A program made the translations under genes and the position numbers. The notes below the pieces were generated by a model, which made no database searches, was not told the origin of the DNA, and was given only the letters and a program-made list of their open reading frames with translations. A stretch of 64,000 nucleotides of DNA from Acidithiobacillus caldus ATCC 51756 (GTDB taxonomy: Bacteria; Pseudomonadota; Gammaproteobacteria; Acidithiobacillales; Acidithiobacillaceae): positions 503,549 to 567,548 of the forward strand of contig NZ_CP005986.1 of the NCBI RefSeq assembly GCF_000175575.2, read 5' to 3'. This document shows, in pieces, positions 27,046 through 38,320 of the stretch (positions within the stretch are counted from its first letter, which is position 1; each line of letters opens with the position of its first letter).

Positions 27046-27249
27046 TTAGGCCCGGCGTACCTTCTCAGCCTGCAGACCCTTGGGGCCGCGGGTCACTTCA
27101 AAACTCACCCGCTCACCCTCGGCGAGGGTCTTGAACCCAGTGCCCTCGATGGCGGAGTGATGCACGAAGACATCTTCCTTGCCATCTTCCGGCGTGATGA
27201 ACCCAAACCCCTTGCTGTCATTGAACCACTTCACTGTACCAACCGCCAT
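27046..27249 (-). CDS. Cold-shock domain protein
   Basis: A 67-residue single cold-shock domain: [18 protein letters not shown] with RNP1 (KGFGFI) and RNP2 (VFVHHSAI). It binds single-stranded RNA/DNA. The ATG at 27249 gives exactly the family length; longer frames upstream are untranslated leader. Its stop faces the end of deaD. Confidence 0.95.
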
Positions 27250-27582
27250 GTTACACCCCAGATAATCAAAGATGGCCGAACTGGCCATGGACAAGCATGG
27301 CACAGCGAGCCCGGCGAAGCAAGGAAATGTCTGCATTCACCACGCTCCGGCGCAGCGATCCTAGACACCCGCCGCCATCTGCAGTCGTGCGATGCTGCGG
27401 TCCACATCGCGCGTGTACCGTCTACCACTTTTACATCGGGATTGACGCGCGCAACTCAGGATTTTGCCTCCTGGTAGCGGCTTGGCCTATCGCTGCCATC
27501 GGGACGTGAAGGCAAAACCACTATGTGCTGCCTATGCTGCCTGTGCTATCCTCGCGCGAGGATCATAAAGGAGAAATTGCAC
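27250..27582. other. Intergenic region between divergent csp and fapF-like genes
   Basis: About 330 bp without a gene. It must hold the long 5' leader of the cold-shock gene (reverse) and the promoter of the outer-membrane gene (forward). I see no convincing -35/-10 pair. A 16-bp perfect palindrome is annotated separately. Confidence 0.6.
27548..27563. promoter_or_regulatory. 16-bp perfect palindrome before the fapF-like gene
   Basis: ATCCTCGCGCGAGGAT reads the same on both strands and ends four bases before the AAAGGAG ribosome-binding site. It could be an operator or, in RNA, a hairpin masking that site. Function inferred only from symmetry and position. Confidence 0.45.
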
Positions 27583-28650
27583 ATGCTTACGTCTCGCAAG
27601 CAGCAACTGGGAGTGTTGCTGATATCTTCGTCGCTGATGATCTGGACTCAGGCCTACGCCGATGACGGCACAACCCTCAAGGCGCCGCCGGAGTCGGCCA
27701 GCAAGAAGGCCATCCTGCAACAGAATACGGATTTTTTCTATAACAAGATTACCCTGCAATCCAGTGCGTCTTACGCCTATTCCGATTCCAATACCATCAA
27801 CCTCAACGGCTTCCTGGCCCTGGGAGCGATCTTTCTCGGTAATATCAACGTCTCCAAAGTCAAATCGAGTATCTATACCTTTACGGAATCTGCTTATTAT
27901 CCCATCAACAATCGCCTGCAGTTGGTGCTGAACGTTCCCATCGTCTACCGCCAGAGTACCTACGAGATCGGCGGTGTGAACTTTGCCTCGAATACTCAGA
28001 GCGAGGCGACGGTCACCTCGGGTGGTCCCCGCCTGGGCGACGTCAGTTTTGGTGGATATTACCAACTCCTCAACGAGAGCAAGCACTGGCCGAGCCTCAC
28101 CGCGAGCCTGTTGGTCACCGCTCCGAGTGGTGTCAGCCCGTACGGTATCAAGGTCTATCAGCCGGATCCGAACAACACCAATCTGCAGGTACCCACCAAA
28201 CTACCCACGGGTAATGGCGTCTGGACCATCACTCCGGGGCTCTCTTTCGTCTCCACCTCGGACCCGGCCATTTTCTTTGGCAGTATCAACTACTATTACA
28301 ACCTGCAGAAAACCTTTTCCGATATCAGCACACAGCAGGGTGTGGTGCAACCGGGCCAGGTGCGTCTGGGTAACGCCTTTCAGTACAGCCTGGGTGTGGC
28401 CTACGCCCTCAACGACCGTCTGAGTATCAGCACTTCTTTTGCGGATCGTATCCAGGACCAAACCGAAGTGCGTGCGCTGGGAGGAGCTTTCACCCCCATC
28501 GTCGGCAGCGGTGCCAATGTGGCCGTCGCTAATTTTGGTCTCACCTACGCCTTTACCCAGAATACTTCCTTGATCATGAACCTGGGCATTGGACTAACCA
28601 GCAGTGCTCCCAATTTTCAGTTGACGGCGACCATCCCCTATAACCTGTGA
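27583..28650 (+). CDS. Outer-membrane beta-barrel protein, FapF-like transporter candidate
   Basis: About 355 residues. The ATG at 27583 has AAAGGAG ten bases upstream and gives a signal peptide (LGVLLISSSLMIWTQAYA). After a short soluble stretch the protein becomes an amphipathic beta-barrel beginning SSASYAYSDSNTINLNGFLAL and ending TATIPYNL. The LNGFLALGAIFLGNI segment, the NVPIVYR region and the overall plan resemble the transporter family that includes FapF, the pore exporting Fap amyloid subunits. Proximity to fapB/C/D/E-like genes supports this. Alternative: a generic phenol-degradation-meta-type barrel. The gene is on the opposite strand to the rest of the Fap-like set. Confidence 0.6.
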   Translation: MLTSRKQQLGVLLISSSLMIWTQAYADDGTTLKAPPESASKKAILQQNTDFFYNKITLQSSASYAYSDSNTINLNGFLALGAIFLGNINVSKVKSSIYTFTESAYYPINNRLQLVLNVPIVYRQSTYEIGGVNFASNTQSEATVTSGGPRLGDVSFGGYYQLLNESKHWPSLTASLLVTAPSGVSPYGIKVYQPDPNNTNLQVPTKLPTGNGVWTITPGLSFVSTSDPAIFFGSINYYYNLQKTFSDISTQQGVVQPGQVRLGNAFQYSLGVAYALNDRLSISTSFADRIQDQTEVRALGGAFTPIVGSGANVAVANFGLTYAFTQNTSLIMNLGIGLTSSAPNFQLTATIPYNL

Positions 28651-31723: not shown

Positions 31724-32485
31724 TCAGGGTTGTGGCACCTGCGGCATGAGCGCCGGCGCCAACTGGGCGATATTGATACTCGGGGTTTTGGCTGGGTCCA
31801 CACCCAAGGTGAGCTTCATGCTATTCTGGATGGCATTGAGGTTGCTCTGTACCTGAGCCATCTGGAAAATGCCATTGCTGCCAATACCCTGCTGGATGGT
31901 GTTGGCACCATTGCCCACGAGCATGGAGAGCTGACCGGGTGCGACGGTCATGGTGACATTGCCCGTTTGGGTCGTGCCGTAGTTGCTCATGACGTTTACT
32001 CCAGCCGGGGGCGCGCTGGTGGAGGGCGCGCCCTTGATCACGTTGAGACTCATGCCGTTCTGGACGGAATTGTCGTTGCCACCGATCTGAATGGCCTGGG
32101 TTACACCCTGAATGTTCTGCAGGCCGGAGCCGTCCATGTGGCTGGCCGGATTAGCTACCTGCCCCGGTATGGTGCCCTGGGTGCTGTAGGTTATGGTGGG
32201 CATGAAGGTCGTACCGTTGCTATTGAGGGCAACGTTGAGGTTGCTGCTCATGCTCATGGGTGTTTTGCCAGCGGTACTGGTCCAGTTGGTCTGCATCTCC
32301 ACCCCAAAATACACGATCTTGCCGCCGATGACGCCCTTACCCACGACCTTGGCGAGCACGGGATCCGGAACAGTAGGACCAGCGATGGGGCTTCCGGGCA
32401 CCAGAGTCTGAGCCAAGGCAGCGCCAGTGGGAAGCAAACACAGACCAGTCACAACGAGAGACGATTTCCAGCTTAAAGTGTGCAT
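31724..32485 (-). CDS. FapE-like secreted protein
   Basis: A 253-residue secreted protein with signal peptide (LVVTGLCLLPTGAALA), no cysteines in the mature part, and high Asn/Gln/Ser/Thr content. Its first half holds LAKVVGKGVIGGKIVYFGVE; the second half has GLQNIQGVTQAIQIGGNDNS, which resembles amyloid-associated proteins. Position after the C39 protease gene and before the end of the set matches FapE, an extracellular minor component. Homology is judged by eye and position. GAGGAA precedes the ATG. Confidence 0.6.
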   Translation of the reverse strand: MHTLSWKSSLVVTGLCLLPTGAALAQTLVPGSPIAGPTVPDPVLAKVVGKGVIGGKIVYFGVEMQTNWTSTAGKTPMSMSSNLNVALNSNGTTFMPTITYSTQGTIPGQVANPASHMDGSGLQNIQGVTQAIQIGGNDNSVQNGMSLNVIKGAPSTSAPPAGVNVMSNYGTTQTGNVTMTVAPGQLSMLVGNGANTIQQGIGSNGIFQMAQVQSNLNAIQNSMKLTLGVDPAKTPSINIAQLAPALMPQVPQP

Positions 32486-32503: not shown

Positions 32504-33214
32504 TCAAAAGTATTTGGCGACATCGTAACCAAAATGAGCAGGTTGCAGCGGAACTTTGGGTAATTGACCATGCAAAAGGCGCATGGCACTGGGTGCTTCT
32601 ACCGGGGTCAACAACACGGAGTTGGGCTCAAAGCCCTTTCCAAATACGGCAAAGACGATCTTGTTCCAATCCTTCAGGAACTGCGCCTTGGGCATGACCC
32701 GATTGCCCAGGGCGGGATCGGCCAGGTAGACGTGCTCCGGGCCGGTTTTCTCCAGTACTACAAAATGCTTATAGCCCCCAAGATCCAGCAAGACGATGAC
32801 GGGGATGTGAATGTTTTCTAGTTCTGCGGGCGTTACCACATAGCCCTCGCCTTTTAGTCCGATTTTTTCCACGTAGCGTTTCAAATCCAACAAGGAAAAG
32901 CCGACTTTCTTGACCTCCTCGGGATTGCTGACGGTGAATAGTCCCTTCATCACCGACTCTTCCGTCACATCCTGGCCAAAGCCGTACTTGAGGATGGTGG
33001 CAAGGGATGCCGCGCCACAGGAAAAATCCGTGTGCTGGCGCACCACGTGGATGAAGTGCATTCCCACCATGCTGCGTATGGGAATGTTCAGCACGCCGGC
33101 ACCGGGGATGACGTTGCCGAAGGGTGCTGCGAATAGGGGGGAACTCTGCAGCATCAAAGTCGCCGCAATACTGCCGGCGCCCAGGATCTGAAAAATGGTA
33201 GACCGTAATACCAT
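32504..33214 (-). CDS. C39-family peptidase, FapD-like
   Basis: Papain-like C39 protease of about 236 residues. The ATG at 33214 has GGGAG seven bases upstream and yields a hydrophobic N-terminus (LGAGSIAATLMLQSSPLFAA) that could be a signal peptide. Catalytic residues are Cys66 (TDFSCGAASLATIL), His150 (YKHFVVLEK) and Asp166 (LADPALGN). Stand-alone C39 proteases occur in Fap loci as FapD, needed for subunit processing or export. It follows the major repeat protein and precedes the fapE-like gene. Confidence 0.8.
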   Translation of the reverse strand: MVLRSTIFQILGAGSIAATLMLQSSPLFAAPFGNVIPGAGVLNIPIRSMVGMHFIHVVRQHTDFSCGAASLATILKYGFGQDVTEESVMKGLFTVSNPEEVKKVGFSLLDLKRYVEKIGLKGEGYVVTPAELENIHIPVIVLLDLGGYKHFVVLEKTGPEHVYLADPALGNRVMPKAQFLKDWNKIVFAVFGKGFEPNSVLLTPVEAPSAMRLLHGQLPKVPLQPAHFGYDVAKYF

Positions 33215-33232
33215 GGCAGGCTCCCGTCGATC

Positions 33233-33267
33233 AAAACCGAAAACTGCCACCCCCGCGGGGGTGGCAG
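33233..33267 (-). terminator. Strong hairpin between the fapC-like and fapD-like genes (attenuator)
   Basis: An 11-bp perfect stem CTGCCACCCCC/GGGGGTGGCAG with a 2-base loop (33244-33267). On the reverse strand it is followed by TTTTCGGTTTT, the layout of a Rho-independent terminator. It lies 13 bp after the fapC-like stop and 30 bp before the fapD-like start, so partial read-through would give more structural subunit than processing proteins. Confidence 0.75.
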
Positions 33268-33279
33268 AGACCAAGTGGA

Positions 33280-34611: not shown

Positions 34612-34800
34612 GGTACTCTCCTATGGTGAGGTATGGACTGACGGTTCAACTACTTCACTGCTTGCTACTGCAACGCTCCGGGCGCGACCCCGAGAGCGAA
34701 ACTGTTTGCCGAGGCATTGCCTGAACCCGATACCTGGTTCACCTGGGCAATGCCTCCGGCGCCTTTGAAGGCGGTCGCTGCGACCGCAACGCTGGTGACT

Positions 34801-34808
34801 TCTTCCTT
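34801..34808. repeat. Target-site duplication, left copy
   Basis: TCTTCCTT immediately outside the left end of the IS1595 element; identical to 35786-35793. Eight bp is the usual duplication length for this family. Confidence 0.93.
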
Positions 34809-35785
34809 CATGCCTGTTAACCTTTCTCAGCAACAAGCCGGACCGGGATATGTTCCATACAGGCATTGAGCAACCTCAGGGGCAGTTCTGGCTCCCAGAA
34901 ACGGCGATTGAAGCGATAGACAAACTCGTTCAGATATTCCTGCAGATATTTGCCGGATACCCCATGGAATGTGCCCAAAAGAAAGGCCTTGAGGTTACCA
35001 ATGGCGATGTGTACCCACGGCAACCACTCGTCCACCTGATGCGGTTTGGTCACGCGCCCCTCATGCTCTTGGCTCTCTCCGAGAACTCGCAGCGCTATTA
35101 AGCCGTCGGTGCGGGTAGGTTGCTTGGGGCGCAAGCGTCGCCGCGCGAATTCGCGAATCCGGTCGGCAGAGACCGAAGGCGTCGTCTCGATGGCAATAAA
35201 GCCCGCCTTCTTGCCCCGGTTTTCCACGGCAACCAAGATCGGTGTTTTGCCTTCGGCCCCTCGACCGCTCTTCCCCCCAGACCGGCGTCCACCGACAAAG
35301 GCATCGTCCAACTCTACCAGCCCTTCCAAGCGATACAGACTGTCGCGATCGCCCATGGCGCGGCGCATGCGGCGCAACATCCGGTGAGCCGTGATCCAGG
35401 AGACCCCAATCTGCTTCGACAGCCGCAGGGCGGACAATCCGCCCTTGTCGCTCGCCATCAAATAGATGGCCAGGAACCATTGCACCAGGGGCACATTGGA
35501 CGAATGAAAAATTGTGCCGGCCGTCACCGAGGTCTGATGGCGACAGTGCCCGCACTGAAAGAGTTTTCGTCCGGCGATCCAGTATCCGCGGTCATGGCCG
35601 CATTTCGGACATCGAAACCCCTCGGGCCAGCGCTTTTGTTTCAGCGCCTCCAAGCAGGCCTCTTCCGTGCCAAACCGCGCTTGCCACTGCAAGAGGTTCG
35701 TCGCTTCAGCTTTCATCTCAGACCTCCTTTCTCTATGCCTCACAGAGAGTTAGAGCTTGATTGCTGAGAATGATTCAGAGGCATG
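34809..35785 (-). mobile_element. Complete IS1595-family insertion sequence (977 bp)
   Basis: Bounded by matching terminal inverted repeats. Both ends begin CATGCCT, diverge for a few bases, and share TTCTCAGCAA about 15 bases in. Flanked by 8-bp direct repeats. Carries one transposase gene in the same orientation as the interrupted operon. The intact ends, intact gene and identical duplications indicate recent insertion and a potentially active element. Confidence 0.94.
34817..35716 (-). CDS. IS1595-family transposase
   Basis: DDE-type transposase of about 299 residues from the ATG at 35716, with GGAGG nine bases upstream. An N-terminal zinc ribbon of the IS1595 type (CPKCGHDRGYW ... FQCGHCRHQTSVTAGTIFH) is followed by the catalytic core: ELDDAFVGG, a second Asp near TDGLIAL, and the conserved C-terminal NLKAFLLGTFHG and LNEFVYRFNRR. 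The stop codon lies inside the left terminal repeat. No frameshift or internal stop is seen. Confidence 0.93.
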   Translation of the reverse strand: MKAEATNLLQWQARFGTEEACLEALKQKRWPEGFRCPKCGHDRGYWIAGRKLFQCGHCRHQTSVTAGTIFHSSNVPLVQWFLAIYLMASDKGGLSALRLSKQIGVSWITAHRMLRRMRRAMGDRDSLYRLEGLVELDDAFVGGRRSGGKSGRGAEGKTPILVAVENRGKKAGFIAIETTPSVSADRIREFARRRLRPKQPTRTDGLIALRVLGESQEHEGRVTKPHQVDEWLPWVHIAIGNLKAFLLGTFHGVSGKYLQEYLNEFVYRFNRRFWEPELPLRLLNACMEHIPVRLVAEKG

Positions 35786-35793
35786 TCTTCCTT
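35786..35793. repeat. Target-site duplication, right copy
   Basis: TCTTCCTT immediately outside the right end of the IS1595 element. In the interrupted gene it reads AAGGAAGA, i.e. Lys-Glu plus two bases, in the same frame at both copies. Confidence 0.93.
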
Positions 35794-36306
35794 TGTGGTC
35801 TTGTTCAGGGTGCTGCCCGAGATGCTGGGCAGGCTGGTGGCTAGCACCGCGTTGGTCACAGGCTGTGACGCGCCGAGGACGATGCCGAGCTGATTGCTCT
35901 CGCGGTTGGCGGAACCTGCAGCCTGATTGATGGCGAGGATGCCCGTCGCATTGTTGAGGGCGTTGCCGGTGATCTGCGTGCTCTGGCTGGTCACGGACGG
36001 GCTGCCAGACTTGACTTGGTTCTTCTGCACGACGGCATCCGGTGCGTTCACACCCTGGCCGTTGGGGCTCATGATGACGCTGGCGACGTTCGCTTGCAGG
36101 TTATCGTTGCCCGCAGCCAGATTGGCCATGGTTGCGCCGCGCACGTTGCTCATGGCGTTGTCGGAGATGATGGAGCTCAGGGAATTGCCCAGTACCGCTG
36201 GAGCAGCGTAGAGCATGGGGCTCACCGACCCGGACAGCAGGGCGATGGCGATTCCGATAAAGCGTTGGCTGGACATGAATCGTTCTCCCGGATGTGTGCG
36301 GAAACC

Positions 36307-36615
36307 CTATTGACCGACGCGCATGGAGGCACTTTGCAGGTTGGCGCCGCCACTTTGCATACTGATGCTGTTACCCCCCTTACCTTGAAGCTCATCCCAG
36401 AGCACGACACCGTTGCCGTTTTGGTGGATGAGTTTGGGGAGGTTCACGGGGATCCCTTTACCGTTGACTTGGGCCAGGTGCTGGTTGTTGAGCGCTTCGG
36501 CCTGGATTCCCGGGAGTGCCGGGGCGGCGACGCTGGCGATGCTCCAACAGGCGGTACTGGCGGCGGCTAGGAGCATCCACAGTCGGCTTCTGGAACGGTG
36601 CATCTGGAGCAGCAT
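36307..36615 (-). CDS. Small secreted protein, first gene of the Fap-like operon (fapA position)
   Basis: About 102 residues from the ATG at 36615, with TTGAGGA eight bases upstream. The N-terminus is a signal peptide (LWMLLAAASTACWSIASVAA). The mature ~70 residues hold HLAQVNGKGIPVNLPKLI and end in GGNSISMQSGGANLQSASM, which has the alternating Ser/Gln/Asn look of an amyloidogenic segment. A GTG at 36642 is possible but would lie upstream of the expected sigma-54 transcription start. I do not recognise a family; the label FapA is by position only. Confidence 0.6.
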   Translation of the reverse strand: MLLQMHRSRSRLWMLLAAASTACWSIASVAAPALPGIQAEALNNQHLAQVNGKGIPVNLPKLIHQNGNGVVLWDELQGKGGNSISMQSGGANLQSASMRVGQ

Positions 36616-36648: not shown

Positions 36649-36665
36649 AGCAAGCGCCGTGCCAA
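36649..36665 (-). promoter_or_regulatory. Sigma-54 promoter of the Fap-like operon
   Basis: On the reverse strand TTGGCACGGCGCTTGCT, a full match to the sigma-54 consensus TGGCAC-N5-TTGC(A/T) with correct GG/GC spacing. Transcription would begin about 12 bp past the -12 box, near 36638, about 23 bp before the ATG of the small secreted protein. Confidence 0.9.
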
Positions 36666-36919: not shown

Positions 36920-38320
36920 TCAGCTTTTCTGGGTCGGCGGGGTGATGCCGTGCTTTTCCATCAATCGGTACAGCGAGACCCGGGAGATCTGCAGTTGTTC
37001 GGCGGCGCGGGTGACGCTGCCCAAGTTGTCCGCCAGGGCCGAGCGGATGGCGTCGCGCTCCGCCAGGTCGCGCGCTTGGTTGAGGGAAACGCGAATGCGG
37101 GAATTGCGGCGCCGTTCCAGGCCAAGGTCGGCGGCGGTGATGAGGAACTTGTCGCACATGACCATGGCGCGGCGCACGCGGTTGATGAGCTCGCGGATGT
37201 TTCCGGGCCAGTCGTAGTTGGCCATGATCTGCAGGGCATCTTCGCTGAAGCCCTTGACGCGCTGGCCGCGCTCGTCGGCAAAGCGGTTGAAGACGTACTG
37301 GGCGAGCAGGGGTATGTCGCCCTCGCGATCGCGCAGCGGCGGCATCCGGATCTGCAGGACATTGAGGCGGTAATAGAGGTCTTGCCGGAAGTTGCCCAGC
37401 TGTATGGCTTTTTCGAGATCGACGTGGGTAGCGGCCAGCACGCGCACGTCCACCGCGATGTCTTCGCGCCCGCCCACGCGCTGAATGGTCTGCTCCTGCA
37501 GGAAACGCAGCAGATTGACCTGCAGGTCCAGGGGAAGGTCGCCGATCTCGTCCAGGAAGAGGGTACCGCCCGAGGCGCTTTCGATGCGCCCGATCTTGCG
37601 CTCGTGGGCACCGGTGAAGGAGCCCTTCTCGTGGCCGAAAAGCTCGGAGTGGATGAGATTGGCGGGCAGCGCGCCGCAGTTGACGGCAACGAAGGGGCCG
37701 TCCTTGCGGCTGGAGCGCTCATGAATGGCCTGGGCGGCCAGTTCCTTGCCGGTGCCGCTCTCGCCCGTAATGAGTACCGGGGCATCGGTGGAGGCGACCT
37801 TGCGTATGTCCTGGTAGATCTGCTGCATCACCGGGCTTGCGCCCACCATCTCCACTTCCTTGCTGGCGCCGGGTTCGTGTGGCGCTATATACAGGGCGTC
37901 CTCGGCAATCTCGGCCATCCCTGCAGCGTGGCCCAGGATCACCAGGAGCCGGGCGGTGTTGATGGGCTGCGTGTGATAGTCGTAAAAGGCACTGCCGATG
38001 AGCTTGCGGATGCTGGTGTCTTCCAGGGCCTTGCGCGGCAGCAGCGCAATCCAGCGCAGGTGGGGGTGGTGGGCGATGATGGACTCGATCTTCTGACCGC
38101 TGGTGAGGAGATCCTTTTCATCGAAGCCGATGACGGCGGCGGCTGGCCGGATTTTGCTCAGGGCGCCAGGGGCGTCGTCGATGTGGGCGGCGAAGGACAT
38201 GCCCCAGCCCGCGGATTCCAGCTCGGCCAGGGAGCTGGCGATGATGGCGCGGGGACCGACGTAGAGGAGGCTGCGGGCAACTGCGGTGGATTGCGCGCGG
38301 GGACTCCGTTTTGCTGCCAT
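36920..38320 (-). CDS. VpsR-like sigma-54-dependent activator
   Basis: A 466-residue enhancer-binding protein. Residues 1-150 form a receiver-like domain of the VpsR type, ending FYDYHTQPINTARLLVILGHAAGMA, and lacking an obvious phospho-acceptor context. The AAA+ domain has Walker A GESGTGKE (186-193), GSFTGA (233-238, a variant of the sigma-54-contacting GAFTGA) and Walker B TLFLDEIG (253-260). A Fis-type helix-turn-helix closes the protein (VTRAAEQLQISRVSLYRLM). Known VpsR binds c-di-GMP and activates matrix genes; that is inferred here. AAAGGAG precedes the ATG. The gene is upstream of, and same-strand with, the sigma-54 promoter. Confidence 0.88.
   Translation of the reverse strand: MAAKRSPRAQSTAVARSLLYVGPRAIIASSLAELESAGWGMSFAAHIDDAPGALSKIRPAAAVIGFDEKDLLTSGQKIESIIAHHPHLRWIALLPRKALEDTSIRKLIGSAFYDYHTQPINTARLLVILGHAAGMAEIAEDALYIAPHEPGASKEVEMVGASPVMQQIYQDIRKVASTDAPVLITGESGTGKELAAQAIHERSSRKDGPFVAVNCGALPANLIHSELFGHEKGSFTGAHERKIGRIESASGGTLFLDEIGDLPLDLQVNLLRFLQEQTIQRVGGREDIAVDVRVLAATHVDLEKAIQLGNFRQDLYYRLNVLQIRMPPLRDREGDIPLLAQYVFNRFADERGQRVKGFSEDALQIMANYDWPGNIRELINRVRRAMVMCDKFLITAADLGLERRRNSRIRVSLNQARDLAERDAIRSALADNLGSVTRAAEQLQISRVSLYRLMEKHGITPPTQKS

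Follow-up and report, generated by a model that had tools for sequence, protein, structure and literature searches.

Probable recent insertion of an IS1595-family element in the fapB-like amyloid gene of Acidithiobacillus caldus ATCC 51756

The Fap-like locus and its neighborhood

The window, by which we mean the whole 64,000-nucleotide stretch of DNA that was analyzed from Acidithiobacillus (now Fervidacidithiobacillus) caldus ATCC 51756, contains a set of genes resembling those of the Fap amyloid system. They run on the minus strand in the order fapX-fapB-fapC-fapD-fapE, followed by a glycosyltransferase gene and a PgaA-like gene, while fapF lies on the plus strand. The fapB gene is split by an insertion sequence (IS) flanked by target site duplications (TSDs). 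The features are as follows.

36920 to 38320, minus strand: VpsR-type sigma-54 activator gene (Pfam Sigma54_activat and VpsR), adjoining the operon
36650 to 36664, minus strand: sigma-54 type -24/-12 site, TGGCACGGCGCTTGC, upstream of fapX
36307 to 36615, minus strand: fapX, first gene of the operon, coding for a small exported protein; upstream of fapB in 16/16 relative loci
35740 to 36276, minus strand: truncated fapB open reading frame, 178 aa, made of FapB residues 1-163 and 15 residues from the IS
35786 to 35793: TSD copy TCTTCCTT on the 5' side of fapB
34809 to 35785, minus strand: IS1595-family IS, 977 bp, its transposase co-directional with the fap genes
34817 to about 35716, minus strand: IS transposase, 299 aa, with an ATG at 35716 preceded by AAAGGAGG
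34801 to 34808: TSD copy TCTTCCTT on the 3' side of fapB
34665 to 34808, minus strand: detached 3' piece of fapB, with the third amyloid repeat and the stop codon
33280 to 34611, minus strand: fapC-like major fiber subunit gene, intact, 443 aa (NF058558, 151 bits, cut-off 195)
32504 to 33274, minus strand: fapD-like C39 peptidase gene, intact (NF058616, 204 bits, cut-off 330; Pfam Peptidase_C39)
31724 to 32485, minus strand: fapE-like gene, intact (NF058559, 77 bits, cut-off 250)
27523 to 28650, plus strand: fapF-like outer-membrane amyloid transporter gene, intact (NF058560, 346 bits, cut-off 700)

The first-pass annotation had described the split gene as Fap-like amyloid, and the profile searches agree, the best NCBIfam matches of the respective genes being FapB, FapC, FapD, FapE and FapF. 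All of these scores fall below the curated equivalog cut-offs, which makes "Fap-like" the safe term. FapC carries six repeats of the form GNI..N...G..NQQ.N. No gene of the locus matches the NCBIfam profile for FapA. In its place sits fapX, which has no match in Pfam or NCBIfam and is a candidate functional substitute for FapA.

A site matching TGGCACGGCGCTTGC lies upstream of fapX in 14 of the 16 relative loci, and the VpsR-type activator is a neighbor in several relatives, where it is 68-95% identical. This arrangement suggests that Fap is likely under sigma-54 control in the Acidithiobacillaceae, with the VpsR-type activator as a possible regulator of the operon.

An IS1595-family element within fapB

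The boundaries of the element and its TSDs agree to the base with those given in the first-pass annotation, and its assignment to the IS1595 family is likewise borne out. The transposase scores 193.4 bits against NF033547 (IS1595; cut-off 75) and 92.2 bits against the Pfam domain DDE_Tnp_IS1595 (PF12762; cut-off 27), with an N-terminal zinc ribbon, Zn_ribbon_IS1595 (PF12760; 62.5 bits), at residues 25-70. It is the sole gene of the element, which carries no passenger gene, and an alternative GTG start at 35743, upstream of the ATG, overlaps the stop codon of the truncated fapB. Its two ends, CATGCCTGTTAACCTTTCTCAGCAA-CAAGC and CATGCCTCTGAATCATTCTCAGCAATCAAGC, can be aligned across 31 columns as imperfect inverted repeats of about 30 bp.

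The duplicated 8-mer occurs three times on the plus strand of the 64 kb, the third occurrence being at 27173. Ten full copies of the IS are present in the ATCC 51756 genome, all 100% identical, and six of them, including the one in fapB, are flanked by perfect 8-bp TSDs. Together with the other nine copies, the five other TSD pairs exclude chance as the origin of this IS-like structure. The genome consists of replicons of 2,778, 171.8, 27.5 and 9.8 kb (PMC3826726, Table 1), and its megaplasmid holds two full copies.

The element was not found in the closely related metagenome-assembled genome (MAG) Acidithiobacillus sp. KMB_Bin03 (G001, with ATCC 51756 as G000). Within A. caldus, the comparison covered plasmids rather than chromosomes: on the SM-1 megaplasmid and a second A. 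caldus plasmid no full copy was found, only an 80-nt relic (87.5% identity), and the insertion is probably strain-level. A near-identical copy (99%, full length) lies in a genome from a different genus of the family (G022:C1:2634572-2635548, L076), which indicates that the element travels between genera and points to recent horizontal transfer.

The broken gene and its joined reading frame

The insertion falls after codon 163. The truncated reading frame keeps the signal region and repeats 1 and 2, while repeat 3 (residues 173-203) lies wholly in the 3' piece, where the first-pass annotation had placed it; this piece has no signal peptide of its own. Fusing the flanks through one copy of TCTTCCTT yields a frame that stays open for 208 codons up to its stop codon, as had been proposed, with no further lesion; the residues run ...NKTTKE before the joint and EVTSV... 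after it. Against NF058557 (FapB; cut-off 190) the truncated gene scores 41 bits and the intact FapB of G001 scores 60. An AlphaFold model of the intact orthologue had a mean pLDDT of 38, too low for use. The truncated FapB would be at best partly functional.

An uninterrupted gene in a close relative, which the first-pass annotation had pointed to as a check, is present in G001, whose FapB has 208 residues and reads KTTKEEVTSV across the joint, identical to the restored sequence. Besides G001, open FapB homologues span the insertion site at 15 loci (16 in all). The three-repeat homologues measure 206-224 aa, and two-repeat forms of 141-146 aa occur in one sister genus. The same annotation had named degraded flanks around a shared disruption, or homologues that naturally end at the insertion point, as findings that would speak against its reading; among the 16 open relative loci no homologue ends there, and the flanks are not degraded. 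Compared with G001, the 3' piece of ATCC 51756 shows seven silent and five replacement differences in 45 codons and no frameshift.

Conservation within FapB is highest in repeat 3, which has a mean pairwise identity of 0.81 as opposed to 0.64 for repeat 1 and 0.57 for repeat 2 and is kept even in the two-repeat forms of the sister genus. Between ATCC 51756 and G001, fapB has a dN/dS (omega) of about 0.13, a sign of purifying selection and thus of a gene that has been in working order over most of its history.

Two side issues arose from these comparisons. Silent-site constraint in repeat 3 was considered as a regulatory signal and rejected, since it is low in the G000-G001 pair only (0.20 vs 0.65 and 0.85 in the other repeats), whereas over all pairs the value is 0.66 vs 0.68 and 0.87; a recombination tract is the more likely source. 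Between the end of fapB and the fapC leader (35830 to 34546, IS excluded), identity to G001 is 88-98%, as opposed to about 58-82% in the flanking segments, and this stretch may be such a tract. Separately, a two-repeat Acidithiobacillus FapB has been recorded, along with a proposal that FapC self-nucleates (Dueholm et al. 2013, PMC3792158). Explaining that record as an IS artifact is unneeded, as the FapBs of the sister genus genuinely have two repeats.

Age and nature of the insertion

The identity of the IS copies, the perfect TSDs, the two other A. caldus plasmids lacking a full copy and the undecayed 3' piece together indicate a recent insertion, in agreement with the first-pass annotation. 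We therefore regard an ordinary, recent IS1595 insertion, leaving a natural fapB mutant in which the downstream fap genes are still transcribed, as a highly probable account of the locus. An active element would have entered fapB, the gene for the minor amyloid subunit, in the type strain ATCC 51756T; FapB now stops 15 residues inside the IS and loses repeat 3, and fapC, fapD, fapE and fapF are intact. Transcription would still reach the fap genes beyond the IS, either reading through from the sigma-54 promoter or starting in the co-oriented IS, and ATCC 51756 would be a natural fapB mutant rather than a cell with the operon off. In reversibility the lesion would be no different from any other TSD-flanked IS, for which precise loss may occur at low frequency. 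Against this account, the natural FapB of the sister genus has two repeats, so a two-repeat FapB could work, but repeat 3 is kept there.

Published proteomics bears on transcription past the IS. In vesicles of ATCC 51756, FapD and FapF are abundant and FapC was not found (PMC10853474); the absence of FapC may be biological or may reflect amyloid insolubility. The loci reported there (FapF Acaty_c0525, FapD Acaty_c0529, FapC Acaty_c0530) have a numbering that fits the gene order of the window, FapD being matched to Acaty_c0529 by that order. If, as we assume, the cultures used for sequencing and for proteomics do not differ at fapB, the abundance of FapD, which is encoded downstream of the IS, means that the operon is not off in its entirety. 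FapD could also be expressed from an internal promoter, although none was identified. A search for outward promoters or terminators in the IS gave terminators at chance level and, in the region, one promoter-like site that lies beyond the IS on the wrong strand.

Lesions in other fap loci and the loss of Fap

Lesions are not confined to ATCC 51756. Of the 17 fap loci compared, which come from 16 genomes, four are damaged, by four IS insertions and one multi-gene deletion in total. In G026, fapD is interrupted by an ISL3-family element (L063:6699-8018) with the 8-bp TSD AAAAAATT, and the joined flanks are open through to the fapD stop. At one locus of G018 (L068; 4742-6059 and 9050-10220), fapC carries an ISL3 element with the TSD AATAGCTT and fapF an IS630 element at a TA target; the second fap locus of that genome (L069) looks intact. 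In G001 (L025:11924-12264), fapC ends after about 104 codons, fapD and fapE are missing and the glycosyltransferase gene comes next, with fapB and fapF intact; G001 is a low-coverage MAG, so this loss could partly be an assembly error. ISL3 copies above the cut-off, full or nearly so, number 18 in G018 and 20 in G026.

These lesions bear on the idea that Fap is costly or unused in many acidithiobacilli and that the operon is repeatedly inactivated by active IS elements, the fapB insertion being one instance that became fixed in culture or in nature. Such adaptive or relaxed loss is compatible with the ordinary insertion favored here, to which it adds a cause, and we hold it to be possible, at somewhat less than an even chance. 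In its favor are the lesions at 4 of the 17 loci, which occur at about the neutral rate: at the IS density of ATCC 51756 (90 transposases per 2,778 kb; PMC3826726), about 2.7 insertions are expected in 17 x 5 kb in the absence of selection vs four observed, which is no excess. The purifying selection on fapB (omega about 0.13, G000-G001) speaks against it, and adaptive and neutral loss are not separable by these data. Overall, the pattern fits ordinary recurrent loss of fap genes that are often dispensable.

Altered function and switching

A second alternative grants the insertion a functional effect: a two-repeat FapB would be secreted, and the co-directional IS would uncouple fapCDE from sigma-54 control. 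The FapB of the sister genus, with its two repeats, the two-repeat FapB and FapC self-nucleation of Dueholm et al. (PMC3792158), the orientation of the transposase with the operon and the expression of FapD are all consistent with it. Nevertheless, the natural two-repeat proteins keep repeat 3, the very repeat lost in ATCC 51756, and the minus strand of the IS shows no outward promoter consensus, although acidithiobacilli may use other promoter types. We consider this alternative unlikely.

The first-pass annotation had further proposed that the lesion could act as an on/off switch for a surface fiber subunit. On such a view, the IS would enter and exactly leave the gene often enough to turn a surface amyloid off and on. 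This part of its reading is unsupported, and we judge phase variation of this kind very improbable. The TSD and the frame are perfect and the target encodes a surface fiber subunit, but any TSD-flanked IS meets the same description, five other copies of this IS among them; exact excision restores the frame at any TSD in any gene, and this restoration therefore carries no information on regulation. In the one assembly compared, neither an excised copy, nor a second allele, nor an excision function was seen. What keeps the idea alive is the record of reversible IS mutation in acidithiobacilli, where an ISAfd1 insertion at the rus operon yielded revertants and an ISAfe1 mutation in pstC2 was depleted under selection (PMC10322971). 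Depletion of a mutant, however, is not excision, selection was strong in the documented cases, and those cases belong to other IS families (ISL3, IS701, IS256); our literature search found no link between the IS1595 family and precise excision or phase variation. FapD, whose gene lies downstream of the IS, is expressed in ATCC 51756, and the lesions of relatives in other fap genes, unrelated and either irreversible or caused by IS elements, fit decay better. In a broader version, active IS1595, ISL3 and IS630 elements would share the fap operons of the Acidithiobacillaceae as a hot target, their arrival and loss would determine the amyloid phenotype within sub-populations, and the fapB insertion would represent one position of a biofilm switch that works at the population level; this deserves hardly any credence.

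Significance for work on the type strain

The mechanism is ordinary; the value of the finding is that the type strain used in Fap-related work carries a truncated fapB. ATCC 51756 has served in biofilm and vesicle studies that put Fap amyloid forward as an adhesin (PMC10853474), and conclusions on A. caldus Fap based on this strain call for verification in strains whose fapB is intact. At the same time, the strain offers a natural test of the need for the FapB subunit: with its fapB naturally broken and six repeats in its FapC, the proposed self-nucleation of FapC without FapB (PMC3792158) becomes directly testable.

Comparison with known systems

As judged from its sequence, the element that splits fapB is a typical IS1595-family member, sharing with known (ISXO2-like) elements the transposase domains, imperfect terminal repeats, an 8-bp TSD and a length of about 1 kb. 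A parallel is reported from Staphylococcus epidermidis, in whose ica operon IS256, likewise an IS with an 8-bp TSD, sits in a biofilm gene; its precise excision is said to have been demonstrated. Closer to A. caldus, the switching of ISAfe1 (IST1) and ISAfd1 in A. ferrooxidans and A. ferridurans resembles the fapB case in that an IS inactivates a conditionally useful operon. It differs in that those elements belong to ISL3 or IS701, strike iron oxidation or phosphate genes and were seen to revert or to be depleted, whereas the fapB insertion is known from one assembly.

Compared with the fapABCDEF operon of Pseudomonas, the locus shares the contiguity of fapBCDE, the canonical gene order and the construction of FapB and FapC from related repeats. 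In contrast to that operon, it is without a recognizable fapA, begins with the unrelated fapX, has a detached fapF and encodes a FapC with six repeats instead of three. A missing fapA and a split fapF are common deviations among Fap systems, and Acidithiobacillus is placed among the divergent Fap-bearing genera by Dueholm et al. (PMC3792158).
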